Of a stretch of 64,000 nt of DNA, positions 26,531 to 45,404 are shown one piece after another; the stretch's first letter is position 1; each line of letters begins with the position of its first letter. Made by a program: the position numbers and the translations under genes. The stretch is from Branchiostoma floridae (lineage: Eukaryota; Chordata; Leptocardii; Amphioxiformes; Branchiostomatidae), in NCBI RefSeq assembly GCF_000003815.2, contig NC_049980.1, positions 11,347,816-11,411,815 of the forward strand, given 5' to 3'. Below the pieces are notes generated by a model that worked only from the letters and a program-made list of their open reading frames with translations, did no database searches and was not told where the DNA came from.

Positions 26531-29500
26531 TTAAGCTAATTTGATGCCCTTAAGGTTCTTCTGGTTCATGACAACCTTCTCTTGTCTGGAGACTTCCTCC
26601 TTGAAGGCCAGTTTGTTGGCCTTTTTCTCCATTCTTCTCTCCTGGTAAAGTATCAGAAGAAACAAAGTTAGTATATCATGCTGCACATGATAATTTCTTG
26701 CTCTTTTCTGAGCTTGGTAACACTTGGTACCAACGTGTAAAAACAAAACAAAAATATACGAAATTGGCACCCACCCTCCTTTCTGCCTTTACAGCCTGTT
26801 TCCTTTGTTTCTTTTCTTCAGCTGTTTCCCCTTTTCTTCTGGCTGGAGTAGGTCTACTTTCACTTTCTTCTTCATCTTCTGAACTTTCCAGTTCTTCATC
26901 CATGTTATCCAGCTCCTCCAGCTGTTTCTTGGTGAGACCTTTACCCCCGAGCACACCAATGGGAATGCCACTTTTCTGGGACAGGATGATCTGTTTCCCC
27001 TGAACATCAAAAACAGACAATCAGTTCTCTGTACCTGTACAATAGGCCGGAATTGGACCTCAAAAATAGCAACATATTTGATGTGAGAATTTGAAATACC
27101 TTTTTGGGTTTAGGAGGGTCCTTAATCACTGTTGGGTGGTTGTATAAGGTGGAGTATGTACCTGGAAAAGAATAAAAACTAGACTCACAAAAACCTTAGT
27201 CATAGGGAGTTAGTTTGATGTTAATACAATCTCAATATCCACAAGTACACCTATAAGGTGGCACTTTAATTATTAACCACTTATTGCCTACAACACAGGA
27301 AATTGAAAATCTCATACCCCTGTGAAATATATGTATACATGTGTACTAGTTTTTAAAAAAAATATCTTGTTTTATTTTCAATTGTGCGTTTATCACCAAT
27401 TTTTCCGACATATTTTCCTTGTGAGGTAACAGACATGCATATAGCAGGAAAGAATTGAAGACAGTACATGAGATAACCTACTGTGGGATCATTGACCTAA
27501 CTTCTTGTCAGGCTCCCCTACATGCCTAGCATGTGGAAATCAGACCTTCTACTGCATCCATATAGCTACAAGAACACAGACAAATACATAGAAAACAAAA
27601 CCTCCATGCATGTCATTCACACTTACTGAGGATGGATTCACAGTCCCACTTTTCTTTGGGCTGCTCTGTGACCATCTTCACTAGGTCCTCTTCCTCAGAC
27701 TCTGATTCTGATGACACATCTTCTTCTCCTTCCTCCTCAAGGATCTTCTCAGGATCAAGTCTTCTGATGATACTGCAATCAACACGTTTTGAAAAACATT
27801 TAAAAAAACATAATCAAAGAAAAAAAAGAAAGCAAAGATAAATATTTCCATGGGTTCATCTGATTAGTTAATCAACTGATATGATGGTACATTATAAATG
27901 ACACAGATACATGGCCATAGATACAAAAAACGTGTTACTGCTACAGCAAAGATTAAATTTAACACTACAAAAAACAACAACGAAACCTTGGTATGGGTAT
28001 TGAAATTAGAGGACTTCATGTCAAAAGCACATATGGTAATGGAAACACCGGCATCTTTACAGCTAAACGTGTAAGTTTGCAGTGGAGCATAAGGAAAAGT
28101 TTCGCAATTACAGTACAAGTCTAAAAAATTCTGTTTGATGTTGATTCATGTTTCTGTCATAATTGAAGACCATACGTAGGTACCTTTCTTCTTTCTTCTT
28201 CTCATATTCCTGTAGGATGTTGTTCAGCACGAGGCTGTCCTGCTGCACAGTGCCTGTCAGCTCCTCATGGTCCAGAGGCCCCATCTCATCATCATCATAC
28301 TCTTCATACAGCTGAACAGGCACAACAACAGTTCCATGAGCTCATGCCTCCATGGACTAGCTGCAAGTTCTCAAATGTCTCAGTTAATTGTAGTTCATAA
28401 ACTATGAACGTAATTATTCAACATAAGGCCTTCATTAACATTGATCTCTTCCTGTCAGGATATGGTGAACAGGACTATCATATGGAAAATAAAATTGCAA
28501 AAACAATCTCCCCATAAATTAGTAGTCTCTCCCATTGACCCCAAGACCTGTCAAGTCTGACACTTCCTGTCACTTTCAAAAAGCTGAATTTGTGACTTCA
28601 CCATATTCCTACTCACCTCCTGCTACTCTACTGACATTGTATTGAAATAAATTTGGACACGCCAACAAAGCACATGAAGGGAACAAAGTTTTTTCTTAAC
28701 ATTTACACAGCTGAGAAAGTAAAAAAAAAAAAAAAAAAACTTTGTTGAAGAGGTTCATCAGTCACGTATGCAAACAGTTACAACAATTTTCATCAATCAA
28801 TGACTGTTTTTGTAAAGGTACAGCACATACCTCCCAAATTTTTCGATGTCTACCAGTACATCATTGTCAGAGGAATGACCTAGTCTCAGTTCTCGCGAGG
28901 TCAGGTTTAAAAAAAACTAAAACGTTTAAAACGTTTACATGTACATACAAAAAAAAAAGAGAGAATTCCTTAGAAAGGAAAAGACAGACTGTCTCCTACC
29001 TTTTCAAACCTGTCATCTAGAAGAGTCAAGCCTTCATTTCTCCTCATGACGGAGGATGTGATGGAGTATTCAGTGAACCTGGATTTGGTGGTTCTGTAAG
29101 TCAGCCCCTCATCAGAGCCCTCCTCCTCTGATTCCATCTCACACTCGTCAGACGGGTATTCCCCATCAGTGTCTACTTCTTCTTCCTCCTCATCTTGGGG
29201 GGCTGCGGTTGCCATGGAGATGAAATCATCCTCAAGGACGTTGTCAGGGTCATCGTAGTTGAAGTCTTCATCAAGAGCTGCTACAATATCTGGGTCCCAG
29301 TCTAGCTGTGGGCCTATATGGGAGGGAAAAGTGCGATCAAAGTTAACTTCACAAAGAGAAATTCCAAACAAAATGTTTGAAACAAGGCCTAACCCTAACA
29401 CAAGTCAAAAATCTCTCTGACCAGTGAAAATTCTACTTAAAGCTAAAGCTGCAGCTACCAGACTAAAAGTGTGCATACATATCAATATGGAGGTACCTAA

Positions 29501-32601: not shown

Positions 32602-35600
32602 ATGGCTGCCGCAGGTGCGGAAGGATTGTTGATTGACGTGGCCGGTGCGCGATCTGCTTCTGCTGTGAAGGAACATGATCAGGGCAGTCAGAGATACTGG
32701 AAGAGGTGAGAACTTGTCTGCTGTACCATTTTATTTTGACATTTTATAACATTCGCGGGAGAAAAGGTAGCGAGATTTGTGCCAACCTCGTCGCAATGTG
32801 CCCCCCTCCCACATAACTTTGTGGCATACTGGAAGTTCCAGTTGGTACACCTTTGTAGACAATTTCTTATAAAATCAACATTTAATTATCCTACCCAAGT
32901 CTATTACAAACCCCGCAGCCCCATAAGGTATGAATAAATCTTTTAAAAGTATAATCTTTATCATTATTTGCCAACAACAATTAACGCTAGTTAACCTTTA
33001 TTCGCTCAGTTACCTTAATTCGGTTTTNNNNNNNNNNNNNNNNNNNNNNNNNNNNNNNNNNNNNNNNNNNNNNNNNNNNNNNNNNNNNNNNNNNNNNNNN
33101 NNNNNNNNNNNNNNNNNNNNNNNNNNNNNNNNNNNNNNNNNNNNNNNNNTGAAAACAGCGAGGTCATAATTTGTAAGCTTATTATCTAATAGCCTACCGC
33201 TCTATGGGAGGATTGCGTCACCGTGTTGTTCGCCGGAATGGCAGAGATCTATCACATTCGCTTCCAGTTCACATTTATCATGCACAAGACAACTCAATAA
33301 AGTTTGTGTTGCTAACCAGTAACTGGACTCAAAGTGTGATCAATTGTCGAAAACCGTCTCTTTGTTGCCACAACCTCCCGCACTTGTGGCGCACTCGATC
33401 GAACGTCGCCATGTTTTTCCCCAGAAACCTACGGTCGCAACCGCGGGAAAAAGATTGGATGACGACATTAAAAGGCATTTATTAAACTTACCTTTAATAA
33501 CTCACTAACTCGCCTAGCCTTTTTCTCTTAGATTATTAAGCAGCCATCTATTAAACAATTTATGCACCACCAAAAGTGGAAATGATATGGAACATCGACA
33601 AATTAATTGATTTTACTCTGGTCCCCTTTTTTTAAAAATGTGAAAGTCCCAAGCCAGATCATGTAAACTGTTGCAAATACGGCCTTGAAGACGATACCAA
33701 CTGTCTCAGTACGGGTATGTTACACCGATAACAAGATTTGCACTGCATATTTGTCGACCACAAGTCTGACAGCAATGTTTTATATCATTTATTGTGGAAT
33801 CTTTCGTTCTTTGATCCAGGGCATTGACAACAGCGGCATATCAGACTTCACACCCCTTCATCTTTAGTGTTGTTGGCCGCCGGAATAGACCTTTGACACA
33901 AATATATCGGGTAACATTTTGCCGCGTGGAGGATGCAAAACACTGTACAGATGGTTGTACTGCAAACTGATGATTACCCGCTTGGAAATAGCCACAGCAC
34001 GCCGTTCAAGTTGCAACGAAAGGTGCATAAGTTTCATGGAACGGTATGGCGCCAGGATCGATTCTACGTCACGGTCTACTGACCCAACAACCTCATTTTT
34101 TTACCAACGCGCTACTGCGTGTGACGGTAAATACTCAGCGGTAGTTGTCGGGATTTTTTTGTTGCCTGAATAAGTTTGTAATCTACAGCGCTCCATTCAT
34201 GTCAAGAAAGGAACAATAGCTTCAGCATAAAGTAATTAGCAGCGGACAAACATAACGAGTCTCGTCAGAACGAATAAAGGTCACGCCCTCCGGGAGCGCC
34301 GTCGTTCTCAACGCAACGCGACGGTGTTTTCAAATTGAGACATTTTCATATTAGCATGGTAGGAGAGAAAATACATCGTGGATGGGATGAATGACAAAGG
34401 TAAACAACAATATCACCATGTTGAATACAGAAATTATGCTTTGTTCTTCTGCCAGATTGGAATAAGCTGACTCTTGGTGAAAAACGCAACGAATAAAGGT
34501 TAACTAGCGTTAATCAAATTATAGATAAATATGAGAACAAAATAAATCAAGATTGAAGAAAACACGTTGCCAACAAATTGTTCACTGTGCTATAGTACTA
34601 GCAAATTAAAGTATTCTTTGAGAATTCTGGAGAAGAAAGGAAGAGATTGTCAGTGTTGCACCAATATGTACTTTGGTGGGTATCAATAATCACCAGGTGT
34701 ATTTTGCCCAAATTATGAGTAATGTGGTCGAGGCATCTCCTCGAGCACGGGACCCCCATCTTACGTCCCTACCGGAAGACGATTTCGTGGAAAGCTTTGT
34801 GAGGCTACAGCAATCTGGTCGTTCTTGGTTGGGGGTCTCCCATCCAAGCACTGTCCGGACCGCGGGTTGCTTAACTTCCAAGATCAAGGGATCGGGTGTA
34901 CCAGTGTACAATTGCAGTAAATAGTTTTGGGACAATAATTCCAGCTAAACCTGATGTTACCTTTCTTGTTGACAGAACTGAGAAGAGACAATGGGTGTTG
35001 GCATATTTCATCGGCAATGCAATCCTGTACGCCTCCCGGGCCGCCATGCCTGTCTGTGTACCCGCCATAGCCAAGGAGTTCAGCTGGGACAAAACTGTGT
35101 CTGTGAGTAAATAGAAGTACTTTTCTAGAGTGTGCATGATTTAATTTTTTACACACATAACTTTTGTGTACAATTACAGTAGTATAGTACAGAATTCACA
35201 GGACAGAGGTTGATGATGATAAATGAATTGATTGATACAAGAGAATTGACAGACTCCCTTCATTGTTTTGAACAGGGCAGTGTTCTATCAGTGTTTTTCT
35301 GGGGCTATGCATCAACTCAGGTGTTAGGAGGCTACCTGAGTGACAGGTGAGTGTACAACTCTTGCTTTCTCTATCTGGTTTAGCGTCCGCTGTTCCCCAT
35401 CTTGTGAGGGTTGGACATTGCAGGATGTTGCTCAGGTCTGCTTGCTGATCTCCAGGAGATCAGACAAAAGCAACATGTCAATTTAGAGGACACACACATA
35501 GATATACAACAAATGTACAATACCTTTTGAATTATTATTATTTTTTCAAAATCATTTTTTGATAGATTAAATGCTCTTTTCTTCCACCTTCTCTCCAGGT

Positions 35601-38600
35601 TTGGAGGTGAGGTAATCTCCATGGTTGCTGCTGTTGGCTGGTCCACGATCACCCTGCTCTACCCACAGCTCCTGTACCTCTTCAGTTCACATGACACATG
35701 CATCAGGTTTGTCATCCTGTGCAGAATCCTACACGGGGCATGTCAAGGTAAGGCACTACCAGTGACTATAGTCTACATGCAATTTTCTTTCTTTTCAAGT
35801 TCATTTTGTATGGGTATAAGGTAAACATGTCTTGATATTCATTGATTCAATTCTAAGTAATATTGCATCATGCATGCTTTCTCCCTTTTTTTGTGCTCTG
35901 ACTTACTCCTTCATAGTCACTCTTGCAAAACTACGAAAGCTTCACCCTCCTTTTTCAGCACTGGAAACCAGTGCTGAAGATGGCTTCAGCACTGGAAACC
36001 GAGTGCTGAATGTTCGTCAGCACTGGAAAACCAGTGCTGACGCGCTCTCAGCACTGGAGACGCCGGCTTCAGCACTGGAAACCGAGTGCTGAATGTTCGT
36101 CAGCACTGGAAACCGAGTGCTGACGCTCTCAGCACTGGAAACGCCGGCTTCAGCACTGGAAACCGAGTGCTGACGAACATTCAGCACTGGAAACCCAGTG
36201 CTGATGAACATTCAGCACTGGAAACCGAGTGCTGAGAGAGCGGGAGACTAGAAGTCTCACAGCACCCCGGCCCTTTTCAGGGCCCCCCCCAAATCTTTCC
36301 CAAAAGGGCTATATCTATCACAAATTGACACAATAAAGTTGTTTGCAATCCCGTTTTAATGATATCCATTCCTTATACATTTCAATTATACAAAACAACA
36401 CAAATTCAGGCTTTTTTGCATCTGTATCTATCTTACGTTATATCAAAACCGCCGTTCGGGGTAACACACCAGCTAAAACTGCATAAACTTGAAAAACCAT
36501 CTTTATTAGTACCGTATATAGTACCGCTTTCAGTACTTTGTATCTATACTCTATACATACACCAAGTTACACAGTCATTAAATTGAATAGCACAACCAAA
36601 AGTTAGCCTGTTTAGGCTATAGGCACACTCAGTGTGTCAATAGCCACAGCGTTATTTTTAATCAGTATACGTCAAGTACCGCTCTCAGCACTAGGACACT
36701 CCAGTGCTCGAACTGAGACTTCGGCACTGGTTTGAAGAACGTTCCAGTGCTGAAAAGACGTCAGCACTCGTTTTCCTGTGCTGAAGATTGCTCAGCACTG
36801 GTGTTCCAGTGCTGAAGTGCCCCTGAGCACTGGAAAATCGAGTGCGGAAGGCGAAGCTTTTGTATATCAGCACTCGGTTCCAGTGCTGACGGCGGTTTCA
36901 GCACTGGGTAACCAGTGCTGAGTGACCTTTGACCTGACCCGTCGCCGCCCGGGCCGCGAGTTCAGCACTGGAGCCGAGTGCTGACGAACATTCAGCACTG
37001 GAAAACGTCTTTTCAGCACTGGAAAACGAGTGCTGACGTCTTTTCAGCACTGGAAAACGAGTGCTGAGGGAGCTTCAGCACTGGAGAAAGGCCGATCAGC
37101 ACTGGAAAACGAGTGCTGAACATTCTTCAGCACTGGGCGCCGAGTGCTGAGTCCGATTCGACCATTGTTTTCAGCACTCGGTTCCAGTGCGGAAGGTGAA
37201 GCTTTCGTAGACTTGCGTCACTCTTGAATTTATTAAACTTTAAAGTTGTAGCTCAGGACACACTCTGTTTCTTGAGATAACACCATAGGATCCTGCTGAA
37301 TTCTTCCTGCAAAACTGCAAGAAATTATCCCAAATTAACAACTTAAGCCCTTTTGTGTGGTGACTCTCAAACGTCAATCTAAACAGGGTTCTCCCCAGAG
37401 AGTGGAATAAGGGAGGCCCTCCACTATACTCTCAGCCAGCTCCACTACACTATTTTTCAAATTTAGTGTGTTTCTTCCCTATTTTCTTTGTTAGTTTTGC
37501 TTAGATTAATGACAATTCACAGATTTTTGTACCAGGTGGCATCACTTTTCTAGTCAGCATTGTCTGCAAAAACTTGTGAATGAGCAATGATCAAAACAAT
37601 AGTAGTTTTGCCACTTCACAACAAAGGAATAACAACAGTATATTATACTTGTAGTATTTGACACCCTCTGTCATTGCAAAATGAACGGTGATGGTGGCAT
37701 TTTCATGAAAGTGCAGCGCGTTGGTGCGGGTTATTTTTGCCAGCCCCTCCACTATACTAAAAAATTCTGGGGAGAACCCTGCTAAAGTATTAATATTTTA
37801 ACGGCTGGGCATGAGAATACAATAATTGTATTCAAGCTGCTTGTCACAAGAATGCTGGTTGCACAGATATAGAAATATCAACGTATACGTTTTCTATATG
37901 TGTTCCAGATTAAAATCCAATTATACTAAATTCACCCCCCTTCCCCTTCCATGTACCCTCCAGGTATGCACTATCCATCCTTTACTAGTCTTCTGGCCCA
38001 CCGCATCAGAGATACAGAGCGTGCCCTGGCATACAGCATAGTTAGTGCAGGCTCACTTTTCGGGTAGGTTTATTTTTTTACCTATACATGTAACTCATGT
38101 CTTACCTTCTTATGGCGTTAGGTGTGGCTTTCCCTGCTGAGTCCAGCCTTGTTGCCCAAAATGTGAAAACTGACAGAACAGCCACGTATACTATCATGCA
38201 TTCTGGAATCAAATTTGGGTGAGTGCCCAACCTAGTCTTTAGTATCATTGATAGAATGTCTGTATGATGAAAACAAACGTTACATTTCTACACATCTAAG
38301 TATAATGACAATTTACAAGTGCACAACAAACCATTACTGATTGCTTGATTTACATGTATTTACACCCATTGTCTATCTTCCTGGTATCGTATTAAAAGGG
38401 ATATAAATAATTACAATTCTGGTTCAGAATACTGTGAACTCATTTGCAAGGACATAATTTTCAAGTGGAAGCAAAGAATTAAGTTTTCAGTTCATTCTAA
38501 GTTCACAGTTATGCTGTTCAGCAGTAATGCATGTTTGTGGTATCATGAATTAAATGGAAGCTAGGGGTCTTTGCAAAAACACAAAATTTTAAGATTTACA

Positions 38601-41600
38601 GTTTGGAATTTGGGCTTGCAGTTTTGAATTATTATTTCTTAAAATGCTTTAACTTCTTTAATTTCCTTCATTCTTTCTGCCCAGGGCCCTGTTGATGGGT
38701 TGTTTTGGCTCCATAGTGCTGGTGCATTTGGGGTGGCACACCGTCTTCTACGTAACGGGTGTGGTAGGTCTACTGTGGGCGGCTGTCATGAGAATATTCT
38801 TTGTGAGCAGGAGAAACATTGTGTCCATAAAATCCCTCAATGGTTCCAATGAGGAGAAGAAGAGGCCACACATGCCCTGGAGAATACTCTGTAGGAAAAC
38901 AGCATTTCTGTGAGTAGTAGCTATGGGACTTGAGGTTTTACTTCTAGCTGATCATGATGGAGGTGTCACAGTCTTTCTCTTGTGATTTATCTGCATATGT
39001 GTGAATCACTGTTTTATAATAAGTTTTTCAAATAGGATACAAACATAGTAAACGTTAACAATATATCTATGAAGGTTAGACATCAAGGTAGAACATTATT
39101 AAGTAATACAAAATCAATAAATCAATCAATCAATCAACTAGTTTCTAGTTTCTCAAAAGAGTCAGATGTTTCAGAAAACATGAACTGTCTGACTGTCTGT
39201 CTTCAGTCACAGAGAGTGTAACAGAGAATGATAAGATTTCTGTTTTTTTTTGTCTGCAGCTCTGCAATTGTTGCCCATGTCTGTAACAACAACCTGTTCT
39301 TCATCATGTTCTCCTGGATGCCAACATACTTCCATGAGACATACCCAGACCAGAAGGTAGGTTCCAAGATATGTCTACACACAATCAGTTGCTAGGCAGA
39401 CAAAAAGACAGGTAGGCAGACAGACAGACAGATAGGTAGGTAGGCAGGCAGACAGACAGACAGATAGGTAGGCAGGCAGACAGACACTTACACGTTCTAT
39501 CAAAGCGTGTCTGAGATGCGTCAAAGAAGTTGTGTCATGGTACAGTAGCACAATGTTGCCTTGTGATCTTGTGATCATTGTATTGATAGTACATGTACAG
39601 TTAATGGGTGAAAGTTGCTATGTAAAGTACTCCTAGCAGATAAGTGTAGTTGTTCCTGGTATAACATGTAGTATTTTCTTTTTACCTTTTAGTGCAATGT
39701 ACACGACATTCAAAATTTACTTACTTTGTTCATTGAATCATCAGGTATGTACCATTTCTAAATGTACAAAATGTTTATATGTTTGATTCCAGGGTTGGAT
39801 CTTTAATGTAGTGCCATGGTTGGTGTCCATGCCTGGCAGTGTGCTCTCAGGATGGATTGCTGATTCTTTGATAAGAAAAGGTACATTGAATTCTAGAATT
39901 TGAGTGATTTGTTTTATAATGGGTAGGGTCTTCAGTTGATTAAGTGTAATGGTACCAAGTTAGCTTATGAGTAAAAGTTAGGACAATCATTGCAGTTGTG
40001 ATGGCTTCATGCAGTTTGTATCCAACCTGCCAGGTGGTGCTGTTACTGTATTGGAAAATAAAGCATGTCTGTTGTGTTGGTATTTCACTGTTTTACCTCT
40101 TTCATATCTTATTTCAGGAACAAATGTCACACTAACAAGAAAGATGGTTGAGGTAGGTTAAGTTTACACTTCCAAAGTTACTTGCATGTACCCTATTACA
40201 ATGTTAAAGTTATCCCTATACTAAGTTCCAGTTTATTTGAGTTTTGTTAAAATGACACAGGAGCCCAAATATTAAAGTACACTTCCTTCAATCTGATGTT
40301 AGTGAACATTAAACTTTTAATTCCATTCATTATGCCTTCATGAACAGATGTGATAACATACAACTGCTGGTTACAATAACGGAAATGCTTTATTCTCAAA
40401 AGAACATTTCATTTTAGTTGTATTTCAGTTTCATCAAGTGATGTCAACTCCAAGCACTTAATTACATGCATGTTCATGTACAATGTACAATGTACAATGC
40501 ACCATCATTGAGAAATATGTCATCATTTTGTTTTCTTGTACTGGCATTGTTGCTAACACCAAGTGAGCAGCAAGTCATAAAAAACTGGGCATATGATTAG
40601 TACATCCTCCCTGAGCAGAAATACATGCTTATAACATTTGTGTTATTTTGTTATTCTGTGGATTGTAGGTATTGGAGGCCCAGTTATTTGTTTACTCCTG
40701 ACAGACTATTATTTTGTTGTCCTGTAGATTGTAGGTATGGGAGGACCAGTTGTTTGTTTACTCCTGACAGACTACACGAACAGTTTTGTGATGGCGCTGA
40801 TGGCTGTTTCCATGGGGATGTTCAGCCAGGCCTTCCACAACAGTGGGGTGCTTGTCATACCTCAGGATATCGCTCCTTCGTTTGCTGGTGCCGTCTTTGG
40901 TAAGTTTAGCATTCCCACTATCGTGACTGTGCAGTTTAGGCTATATAAGTGTACAAAAAATATACATGTACAAATGTACATATATCTTGTTTGGTTATCT
41001 GATTTGTACTACCATTCTGTGGCTTTCTATTTGCAATTAGTCATTGTGTTGGTACTCAAACTTTTTGTTTGGGAATAGATAACGTGATGCACCTAGAGTA
41101 GATATTTAGGTGTACAAAAAATGTGCTGGGTGCACAGCATGAAATAAAGTAGAATGTCTGCAAAATGTAATTACAAATATTGCTGCCTATCTTTAGAGCC
41201 TGAAGCTGAAATTCTATAGCTAACTTAAAAAAATATTAGCTATTACATCATTGTACTGCATCCTGGATTTGGTATTCTTAAGTGTCCGTTTTTTTAAATT
41301 TCAAAACAAAGGAAATAGCTTACCCTTTGGATAAAGGTGAACTAACATTACATACATTGTACATGTACAATGCAGGACTGACTCAGTGTGTTTGCCTTGC
41401 AGGTGTCATGAATATGCTGGGTGCCATACCAGGTAAGAAACTTGCTACACCCTTTGGGGTCTTCTTGTCTTGTCGTTGCTAAGGAAGATTTATGAATGGT
41501 GGTGTCATACATGTAGATAGGGCAGGGTAAGGTGTCATAGATGGCTATGTTAACATGTGTGTCAACAACAGGGAACATATACAAATGTACATGTATAGAA

Positions 41601-44600: not shown

Positions 44601-45404
44601 TACAACAAGTCTTTGCTCCTTGGCAATATGATACCCTATAGGACACATTTTCAAAGATTGCCAGTCTGGTACTTGAATTAAAACTGAATTGGTGTTGCAT
44701 GTCTCTTGTTGTGCCCTGTGAAATCTCTGTTATTATGAGCCCTGAAACTGAAAATCTGCAAAGTGCCTGCAACACTAAAGTACAACATGTCCTGTATATG
44801 CCAAAAAGCAGTTACTCAGGCAACTGGTTATGACATTGAAAACAGTCAGACAATGCAGACAGCCTTTTGGCATCGTTCTTTTGCCTGTGAGATAGTTTTT
44901 ATATCCGAGCTGTGAATGGATATGCAAAAGAGATCCAGTTGGACAACAGGTTTATCCTAGCTGTGATATAATATGCAGCAAAGGGAGGAAGACAAATTTT
45001 TAGATTTTTTACATATCTATTTACATGTACAGCTAGGGTATAAAAACTATCCTCAATAAGATTTCTCCAGTGTTACTCACGGAAGACACTGGACGGCTAT
45101 CTGAAAAGTCTGACTGTTTCTGAAATCATACCCAGTTGCTTGAGTAACTGCTTTTTGACATATCTTATTACATAGATGTCTAACCTTCATCGACAACGCT
45201 TCCTGTAATTCTGTATTTTGGTGTCAAAACCACTTACGACTGCACTGTGAATGTTTCTGTGCAGGTGTGGTGGGTGTGTACCTGGCAGGGCACATTCTGG
45301 AGCTGACAGGCAGCTGGGCAGCTGTCTTCCACCTGACAGCTGCCATCAACACCTTCGGACTGCTCGTGTTCCTAGTCTACGGATCAGCTGAGAGAATAGT
45401 GTGA
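32602..45404 (+). CDS. SLC17A9: SLC17A9-like vesicular nucleotide transporter (major facilitator family)
   Basis: Carrier that loads ATP and other nucleotides into secretory vesicles, driven by membrane potential and chloride-dependent in vertebrates. Twelve coding exons give 445 aa (human about 436): 32602-32705, 34976-35102, 35276-35346, 35599-35747, 37964-38063, 38685-38909, 39260-39356, 39793-39880, 40118-40152, 40728-40899, 41403-41432, 45265-45404. Diagnostic stretches include the TM1 motif ASRAAMPVCVPAI, FFWGYASTQVLGGYLSDR, RILHGACQG at the end of exon 4, GWIFNVVPWLVSMPGSVLSG, FHNSGVLVIPQDIAPSFAG and MNMLGAIPGVVGVYLAG. All phases agree. The start codon has a good context (GGAAACATGG). 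Exon 5 has an intact homologous alternative at 38122-38218. A partial copy of the exon-10 5' end lies just before that exon. Closest alternatives are other SLC17 members, but the GWIFNVVPWLV stretch fits SLC17A9 best. Confidence 0.93.
33028..33149. other. Assembly gap (122 N)
   Basis: Run of N inside intron 1 of SLC17A9. True content and length are unknown. The open frame crossing it is an artefact. Confidence 0.99.
34715..34905 (-). mobile_element. 5S-rRNA-headed SINE, minus strand
   Basis: Minus-strand 34905-34834 matches the internal promoter part of 5S rRNA: CCGATC, then GGAAGTTAAGC (A-box region, 34869-34879), then CTTGGATGGGAGACC (34834-34848, C-box region). Downstream follows a non-5S body with CGTCTTCCGGTAGGGACGTA and a GAGGAGATGCCTCG motif, also present in the tRNA-headed SINE near 57 kb. 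It ends 70 bp before SLC17A9 exon 2. The open frames through it are not genes. Confidence 0.7.
35926..37217. mobile_element. Hairpin-array transposon, Mutator/foldback-like, 1.29 kb, 9-bp target duplication
   Basis: Flanks carry the same nine bases TCACTCTTG (35917-35925 and 37218-37226). The ends are inverted: left CTACGAAAGCTTCACC (35931-35946), right GGTGAAGCTTTCGTAG (37195-37210). Two arrays lie between them: about ten copies of CAGCACTGG with its mate AGTGCTG (35956-36237), and about fourteen more diverged copies in both orientations (36685-37190). Most units fold as a hairpin CAGCACT-GGAAACCG-AGTGCTG. A 440-bp non-repetitive centre separates them. A 9-bp duplication is typical of Mutator-like elements, and repeat-built arms recall foldback elements. 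No transposase is present. It lies in SLC17A9 intron 4. Confidence 0.7.
36269..36284 (+). other. Histone-mRNA-type stem-loop sequence inside the hairpin element
   Basis: GGCCCTTTTCAGGGCC: a six-bp stem with TTTC loop that equals the metazoan replication-dependent histone 3' stem-loop consensus (GGYYCTTTTCAGRRCC form). The usual flanking A-rich 5' and ACCCA 3' contexts are absent (CACCCC before, C-run after), and no histone reading frame is nearby, so a chance match is possible. Confidence 0.35.
37384..37781. mobile_element. MITE, 398 bp, CAGGGTTCTCCCCAGA ends
   Basis: Inverted ends CAGGGTTCTCCCCAGA (left) and its complement TTCTGGGGAGAACCCTG (right). The five bases CTAAA flank both sides (37379-37383 and 37782-37786), a probable 5-bp target duplication. 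Subterminal CCTCCACTATACT repeats occur near both ends. No coding capacity. It is in SLC17A9 intron 4, between the hairpin element and exon 5. Confidence 0.75.
38122..38218 (+). CDS. SLC17A9: Alternative exon 5b of SLC17A9 (mutually exclusive with 37964-38063)
   Basis: A 97-nt open block with acceptor GGCGTTAG and strong donor GTGAGT, same entry and exit phase as exon 5. It encodes GVAFPAESSLVAQN through YTIMHSGIKFG, aligning with exon 5a GMHYPSFTSLLAHR through YSIVSAGSLFG after a one-codon gap, with about 10 of 33 residues identical and many conservative changes. It keeps the FPA motif that follows the GxxxG stretch in transmembrane segment 4 of SLC17 proteins, which 5a lacks. Only 58 nt separate the two exons. 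Using both would shift the frame (100 + 97 nt), so they must be alternatives. Use in mRNA is inferred. Confidence 0.8.
39068..39110. mobile_element. Fragment of a MITE end (GAAGGTTAGACATC)
   Basis: CTATGAAGGTTAGACATCAA matches the outer flank of the foldback elements at 24.1 kb and 45.2 kb. It is only an end fragment, in an intron of SLC17A9. Confidence 0.35.
39407..39487. repeat. CAGA/TAGG tetranucleotide microsatellite
   Basis: Mixed GACA and GGTA/GGCA tetranucleotides with a duplicated 36-bp pattern. It lies 50 bp after SLC17A9 exon 7. Confidence 0.85.
40645..40710 (+). repeat. Upstream 66-bp partial copy of SLC17A9 exon 10 5' end
   Basis: It aligns with 40711-40776, which spans the acceptor and first part of exon 10. 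The copy reads ATTGTAGGTATTGGAGGC where the exon reads ATTGTAGGTATGGGAGGA. Its acceptor is lost (TGTGG instead of TGTAG), and the frame would reach a stop at the real acceptor TAG, so it is not a usable exon. Confidence 0.8.
42040..42542. mobile_element. MITE with 40-bp inverted repeats (GGCCACAGCAAGTAAATTTT)
   Basis: The left arm 42040-42080 (GTATGTAAGGCCACAGCAAG onward) and right arm 42501-42542 are near-perfect reverse complements through ATTTTATGGATGACATCC. The interior, about 420 bp, holds A-runs and no gene. It is in SLC17A9 intron 11. Confidence 0.65.
43489..43527. repeat. CA microsatellite
   Basis: (AC)n tract with short interruptions in SLC17A9 intron 11. The open frames through it are artefacts. 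Confidence 0.9.
44799..45161. mobile_element. MITE (AAAAAGCAGTTACT family), about 360 bp
   Basis: The left arm GCCAAAAAGCAGTTACTCAG continues to CAGTCAGAC near 44855. The right arm, inverted, starts GTCTGACTG near 45104 and ends CTGCTTTTTGACA. The same arms occur in shorter form at 24138-24230, and one arm near 59113-59175. It lies 100 bp before the last SLC17A9 exon. Confidence 0.7.

Follow-up and report, generated by a model that had tools for sequence, protein, structure and literature searches.

Two adjacent exon-like blocks, 5a and 5b, occupy the place of the fifth exon in an SLC17A9-like gene of Branchiostoma floridae, within the 64,000-nt stretch of DNA that was analysed (the window). 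The question raised by this locus is whether both blocks encode protein and, if so, what the exchange of one for the other would do to the transporter. We consider it likely that they form an old pair of homologous mutually exclusive exons that swaps residues of the SLC17A9 substrate cavity.

The gene is complete on the plus strand, with a 12-exon path running from an ATG at 32602 to a stop codon that ends at 45404 (Table 1). The open frame has 445 codons with exon 5a and 444 with exon 5b, and the introns of the 5a path span 173 to 3832 nt. A run of N at 33028-33149, within intron 1, marks an assembly gap. With the last exon left out, Pfam MFS_1 matched the 5a form at 170.0 bits and the 5b form at 161.9 bits. 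All 10 PDB matches of the 5a form (E up to 0.001) were sialin, VGLUT2, VGLUT3 or DgoT, as were 10 of the 11 matches of the 5b form, the remaining one being SPNS2 (E 3.6e-4). The E values of the 5a form were 2.2e-41 for sialin (SLC17A5) and 2.6e-31 for VGLUT2 (SLC17A6). By its MFS fold family and its nearest solved relatives, the protein belongs to SLC17. Within that family the first-pass annotation had named SLC17A9, and the assignment was borne out: what we take to be the human SLC17A9 sequence matched the 5a form with 43% identity over 413 aligned positions and 352 bits, against 157 bits for sialin. The length of the alignment speaks for this human sequence, which remains provisional. Passages of an earlier paper describe one Slc17a9 in most species and an odd branching of the Branchiostoma floridae protein (PMC2824716). 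Upstream on the minus strand, part of an LTV1-like gene lies at 28970-29404 (80.7 bits with Pfam LTV). More coding pieces of it, picked out by eye, seemingly extend to about 31740, so that this gene would stand head to head with SLC17A9.

Table 1. Exons of the SLC17A9-like gene and the spacer between the two versions of exon 5, in window positions.
Feature	Position	Strand	Remarks
Exon 1	32602..32705	+	ATG at 32602; open frame; donor GAG/GTGAGA
Exon 2	34976..35102	+	
Exon 3	35276..35346	+	
Exon 4	35599..35747	+	Phase-1 end immediately after the Gln aligned to sialin Glu175
Exon 5a	37964..38063	+	GMHYPSFTSLLAHRIRDTERALAYSIVSAGSLFG; sialin positions 176-209
Spacer, 58 nt	38064..38121	+	UAAC; its A (38093) resembles a branch point and lies 29 nt from the donor of 5a
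Exon 5b	38122..38218	+	GVAFPAESSLVAQNVKTDRTATYTIMHSGIKFG; putative alternative to 5a; donor strong, acceptor weak
Exon 6	38685..38909	+	Phase-2 entry from either exon 5; skipping of exon 5 gives a premature stop at 38693
Exon 7	39260..39356	+	
Exon 8	39793..39880	+	
Exon 9	40118..40152	+	
Exon 10	40728..40899	+	
Exon 11	41403..41432	+	
Exon 12 with stop codon	45265..45404	+	tblastn with two SLC17 C-termini, one presumed and one generic; sequence and frame

Exon 5a (100 nt) is bounded by CAG and GTAGGT and exon 5b (97 nt) by TAG and GTGAGT. They share entry phase 1 and exit phase 2, have AG/GT edges and are free of stops. The first-pass annotation had described two blocks of these lengths with a 58-nt gap, shared phases and intact splice sites, and every particular, coordinates included, was matched exactly. 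It had also given about 10 identities in 33 with a gap of one codon. The gap stood, and the count became 12 of 33 aligned codons with the same residue in the best global alignment, or 10 of 31 when two boundary glycines are set aside; DNA identity is 46%. Its placement of the pair in the TM4-TM5 region holds as well (sialin 176-209 in alignment numbering). Adjacency, similar sequence and length, the same frame and freedom from stops are all present in 5a and 5b, in line with the features by which passages of a study of human exon clusters recognize homologous mutually exclusive exons, namely adjacent internal exons of similar sequence and length, in the same frame and with no in-frame stop (PMC5740500).

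The frame permits only one of the two exons, as had been claimed. Joining 5a to 5b gives a stop at 38138, 728 nt upstream of the last junction, and skipping both gives the stop in exon 6, 639 nt upstream of it. Because a frame shift with an early stop would follow from both exons or from neither, a transporter would result from the use of one of the two. A non-functional frame upon joint inclusion, as found here, is reported for 60% of human clusters in the passages cited above (PMC5740500). The same passages give a steric criterion for human exons, a distance of less than 50 nt from donor to branch point, to which 57 clusters (9%) conform (PMC5740500). In the spacer, the A of a UAAC picked by eye as the candidate branch point lies 28 nt from the AG of 5b and 29 nt from the 5a donor, to be set against that human-derived limit of 50 nt. 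A direct splice from 5a to 5b is probably hindered by this short distance, as judged by a rule of what is too short that comes from human exons. From this anatomy we infer that 5a and 5b are mutually exclusive. The stop at 38138 might also have a use of its own. If 5b were a poison exon, joining it to 5a would lead to nonsense-mediated decay and less transporter, and the position of this stop, 728 nt ahead of the last junction, would suit such a role. We regard this as very improbable, since the role requires no coding constraint in the phase in which 5b replaces 5a, yet such constraint is observed (see below), and the 58-nt spacer should make joint inclusion hard.

The isolated spacer folds somewhat better than its shuffles (z -2.03, 6/200), with a stem over the 5a donor and the UAAC exposed in a hairpin loop. 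The signal weakens when flanking bases are added and is not significant in context (z -1.1 for the spacer plus 14 bases, z -0.09 for a 381-nt region), and RNA structure of the spacer was dropped as evidence for that reason. Rfam gave no match over the window at the gathering threshold. UGCAUG, which we take to be an Rbfox-type motif, occurs at 38528, 3' of 5b. It was dropped as a regulatory signal, as the window holds 47 copies on both strands against 45.7 expected. The splice sites of 5b are unequal in strength. Its donor is strong (9.5, in a donor range of 2.7 to 10.8), and its acceptor is the weakest, scoring -4.8 where the 11 acceptors along the 5a path score 2.4 to 14.3, in a small matrix built from only 11 sites. 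Regulated exons, too, often have weak acceptors. The weak acceptor of 5b could thus reflect either regulated use or recent loss, and because of it 5a is likely the default and 5b the regulated form.

The coding status of 5b was addressed by a scan of both strands of the window for open AG...GT blocks of 85-118 nt with matching phase, which gave 1049 blocks including 5a. Ranked by similarity to 5a, 5a itself came first, 5b second with a score of 59, and the third block reached 18 (z 9.3), which rules out chance similarity as the sole explanation. The two exons differ at 17, 10 and 26 of the 33 sites each at codon positions 1, 2 and 3, and the excess of third over second positions has a permutation P of 2.5e-5 (53 differences placed randomly, 200000 draws). 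With the third positions close to saturation, the duplication would be old, yet the second positions have been kept. A drift null took the present 5a as its starting point, let the 5a branch change only silently and let the 5b branch drift freely; this pattern came out free of stops once in 32000 runs (4000 at each of eight divergence levels). Free drift is rejected as the sole explanation by this result and by the family comparisons below. One generous null, in which drift begins at the family consensus, leaves room for a shorter path, and the drift tests weaken if most of the divergence between 5a and 5b sits on the 5a branch and only part on the 5b branch.

Two comparisons with the family agreed with the block scan and the codon positions, each of the four tests having its limits. 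The segment scores of 5b were 32 against sialin and 14 against VGLUT2, those of 5a 33 and 23, and only 0.035% of 20000 stop-free copies of 5a drifted to the same divergence attained the sum of the two scores of 5b. A family profile was built from 36 rows, made up of 34 bacterial rows (26 distinct segments), sialin and VGLUT2. On this profile 5b scored 26.8 and 5a 25.8, and the 36 rows themselves 66.8 to 80.2. At the three highest drift levels (t 0.6, 0.8 and 1.0), none of the 20000 runs per level carried 5a to 26.8 without a stop; the profile score of 5b was attained from 5a in 3.8% of runs at identity 0.91 and in 0.035% at 0.69. A 5b that never functioned, whether as a duplicate or as an exon-like stretch arisen by chance, is hardly credible in view of the codon-position P value, its first place among the 1048 blocks compared with 5a and a profile score that drift from 5a hardly attains at the observed divergence. 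The codon-position pattern and the family profile, taken in a single genome, indicate coding constraint in both exons. Exon 5b is unlike a decaying copy and has most likely been kept by selection, as 5a apparently has.

A different history would have 5b work for a long time as an alternative exon and lose its use recently, leaving a relic that is still open. The weak acceptor would fit such a loss, as would several residues of 5b seldom seen in the family. Drift that began at the family consensus, moreover, attained the score of 5b without a stop in 31% of 20000 runs at DNA identity 0.75 and in 13% at 0.69, with 1.2% at identity 0.59 and 5e-5 at 0.45. The strong donor, a frame that is undamaged and without a stop, and a family score equal to that of 5a all speak against a relic, and the acceptor is of a kind that regulated exons commonly have too. 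We judge recent loss to be improbable, and prefer two exons that are both in use.

Exon 5 starts directly after the residue aligned to Glu175 in TM4 of sialin, which is Gln in the SLC17A9-like protein and, we presume, in human SLC17A9. Sialin and VGLUT2, about 30% identical to the lancelet protein in the alignment, both have Glu at this position. The swap would extend from there through the end of TM4 and the TM4-5 loop to the middle of TM5. At the cavity positions 179, 203 and 207 (sialin Phe179, Tyr203 and Gln207), 5a has Tyr, Ser and Leu and 5b has Phe, His and Lys, so that all three differ. Both exons retain the nearly invariant Pro180, Arg195, Gly205 and Gly209. Exon 5b places Glu182, His203 and Lys207 in membrane segments; the hydrophobicity of its TM5 half is 0.24 as compared with 1.43 in 5a, and that of its TM4 half 1.11 as compared with 0.44. 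Passages of a sialin study put Phe179, Tyr203 and other residues around the inhibitor Fmoc-Leu-OH and Tyr54, Gln207, Ser411 and His414 around NAAG, and report that the Q207A mutant transports glutamate and not NAAG (PMC11116495). In excerpts of other work, removal of the aromatic TM4 residue of sialin equivalent to DgoT Phe137 made the Km for glucuronate 15 times higher and hardly affected sialic acid (PMC6532931), and Gln164 in TM5 of DgoT was required for galactonate transport (PMC10149257). Because the swap holds the sialin cavity residues Phe179, Tyr203 and Gln207, substrate choice is the best founded of the consequences that had been proposed, the others being altered chloride dependence and targeting. 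Mutually exclusive exons tend to retain the fold and to alter residues at or near functional sites, according to passages of PMC7954323, and the 5a/5b swap fits this tendency.

The exon pair may be real and the swap may still act chiefly on the cytoplasmic gate and the loop, with effects on turnover, partner binding or targeting and not on substrate; as to the pair itself, this overlaps with the explanation we prefer. The loop of 5b is one codon shorter and has Asp for Glu194. In the sialin passages, Arg195, Ser196 and Lys197 close the cytosolic side (PMC11116495), and in those on DgoT, Glu152 and His151 of the same region link TM1, TM5 and ICH1 (PMC6532931). However, all three sialin cavity residues carried by the exon differ between 5a and 5b, with Leu in the one and Lys in the other at 207, and a swap that leaves substrate aside seems to us somewhat unlikely. 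A pair that changes the lining of the cavity is the reading we retain.

By sialin and the family profile the two forms fit SLC17 to a similar degree, with Pfam and several other comparisons on the side of 5a. Sialin matched the full-length 5b form at 146.7 bits and the 5a form at 145.3, a lead of 1.4 for 5b. The 5a form leads with VGLUT2, VGLUT3 and DgoT (1.7 to 2.9 bits), with the three highest-scoring NCBIfam models (6.4, 1.6 and 9.4 bits) and with the presumed sequence of human SLC17A9 (352 against 338 bits). A scan with alignment A1 gave 35 loci, 15 of them titled Binatia, Binatota, Binataceae or Deltaproteobacteria, with identity up to 33% and E 5e-69 over the candidate stretches. Against 18 of 34 bacterial relatives the 5b form equalled or outscored the 5a form; the 5a form was ahead in the other 16, which include all 11 of L024-L034. 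GVAFPA, identical to the first six residues of 5b, opens the exon 5 stretch in 8 of the 34 relatives. Phe stands at 179 in 23 of the 34 and Glu at 182 in one (L023). Neither His203 and Lys207 of 5b nor Ser203 of 5a is found in any of the 36 family rows. The transporters of L001-L023 (Binatia, Deltaproteobacteria and others) are 27-33% identical to the SLC17A9-like protein, include the eight with GVAFPA and are possibly close bacterial relatives of the SLC17A9 type. One of them, L010, is titled Klebsiella pneumoniae (MAG), although its exon 5 stretch is similar to those of the Binatia records, and it may be mislabelled.

Exon pairs of this kind are known in other transporters. Exon 4 of NKCC2 (SLC12A1) exists in homologous mutually exclusive versions A, B and F. 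We know of no such exon 5 pair in human SLC17A9; as compared with vertebrate SLC17A9/VNUT, the Branchiostoma floridae gene has exon 5 twice. The pair resembles those of NKCC2, SLC25A3 and SLC39A14 in its tandem homologous exons of near-equal length and the same phase in a membrane protein, whereas it differs from them in belonging to the SLC17 family, in exchanging the TM4-TM5 part of a substrate cavity and in being known here from sequence alone. The pairs of SLC25A3 and SLC39A14 appear in passages of PMC5740500. None of the literature matches listed, by title and opening of the abstract, concerned a mutually exclusive exon pair in SLC17A9, in a limited search that could miss a paper.

In the mechanism we favour, a tandem duplication of exon 5 in the gene of SLC17A9, the vesicular nucleotide transporter, would have given rise to 5a and 5b, and each mature transcript would carry one of them. 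The cavity would then be lined with Tyr, Ser and Leu or with Phe, His and Lys at 179, 203 and 207, plus Glu182 in 5b, and the two resulting proteins most likely have different substrate preferences or kinetics. We infer the splicing in the animal, its regulation and its effect on transport. As a tentative extension, possible but with the balance against it, one SLC17A9 gene would yield two vesicular transporters that differ in cargo: the 5b form, which has Phe179, His203, Lys207 and Glu182 in or near the cavity, would load another anion or differ in proton coupling, splicing would set the transmitter of the vesicle, and the pair may predate the vertebrate split, with 5b then lost on that side. 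Taking the human exon 5 in its presumed sequence, 19 residues are shared with 5a and 16 with 5b, and 12 are common to 5a and 5b; shared exclusively are six between 5b and human, nine between 5a and human and two between 5a and 5b. These counts, which are small and involve a provisional human row, hint that the duplication dates back to the split from the vertebrate line. Arguments on how SLC17 transporters select among nucleotides, glutamate and sialic acid draw largely on structures and point mutants. Two natural exons that exchange cavity residues, each version apparently selected, would amount to a ready-made experiment on substrate selectivity, and vesicle content would, if the reading is true, be settable by splicing.

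Two further elements were seen in the gene. Intron 4 contains a foldback-type element, which spans 35916-37225 with its flanks and about 35925-37216 by itself. Its inverted ends carry ACGAAAGCTTCACC (35933 on the plus strand, 37195 on the minus strand), its interior is rich in TCAGCACTGG...CAGTGCTGA palindromes, and a 9-bp direct repeat, GTCACTCTT, flanks it at 35916 and 37217. It looks like a recent insertion, and the 9-bp duplication leads us to guess at a Mutator-like foldback. The second element is a 66-bp tandem duplication at 40643-40774 (2.0 copies, 90% match) that spans the start of exon 10, making it the second local duplication in this gene. Its upstream copy has TGG in place of the acceptor TAG and thus looks like a dead partial copy of the exon.
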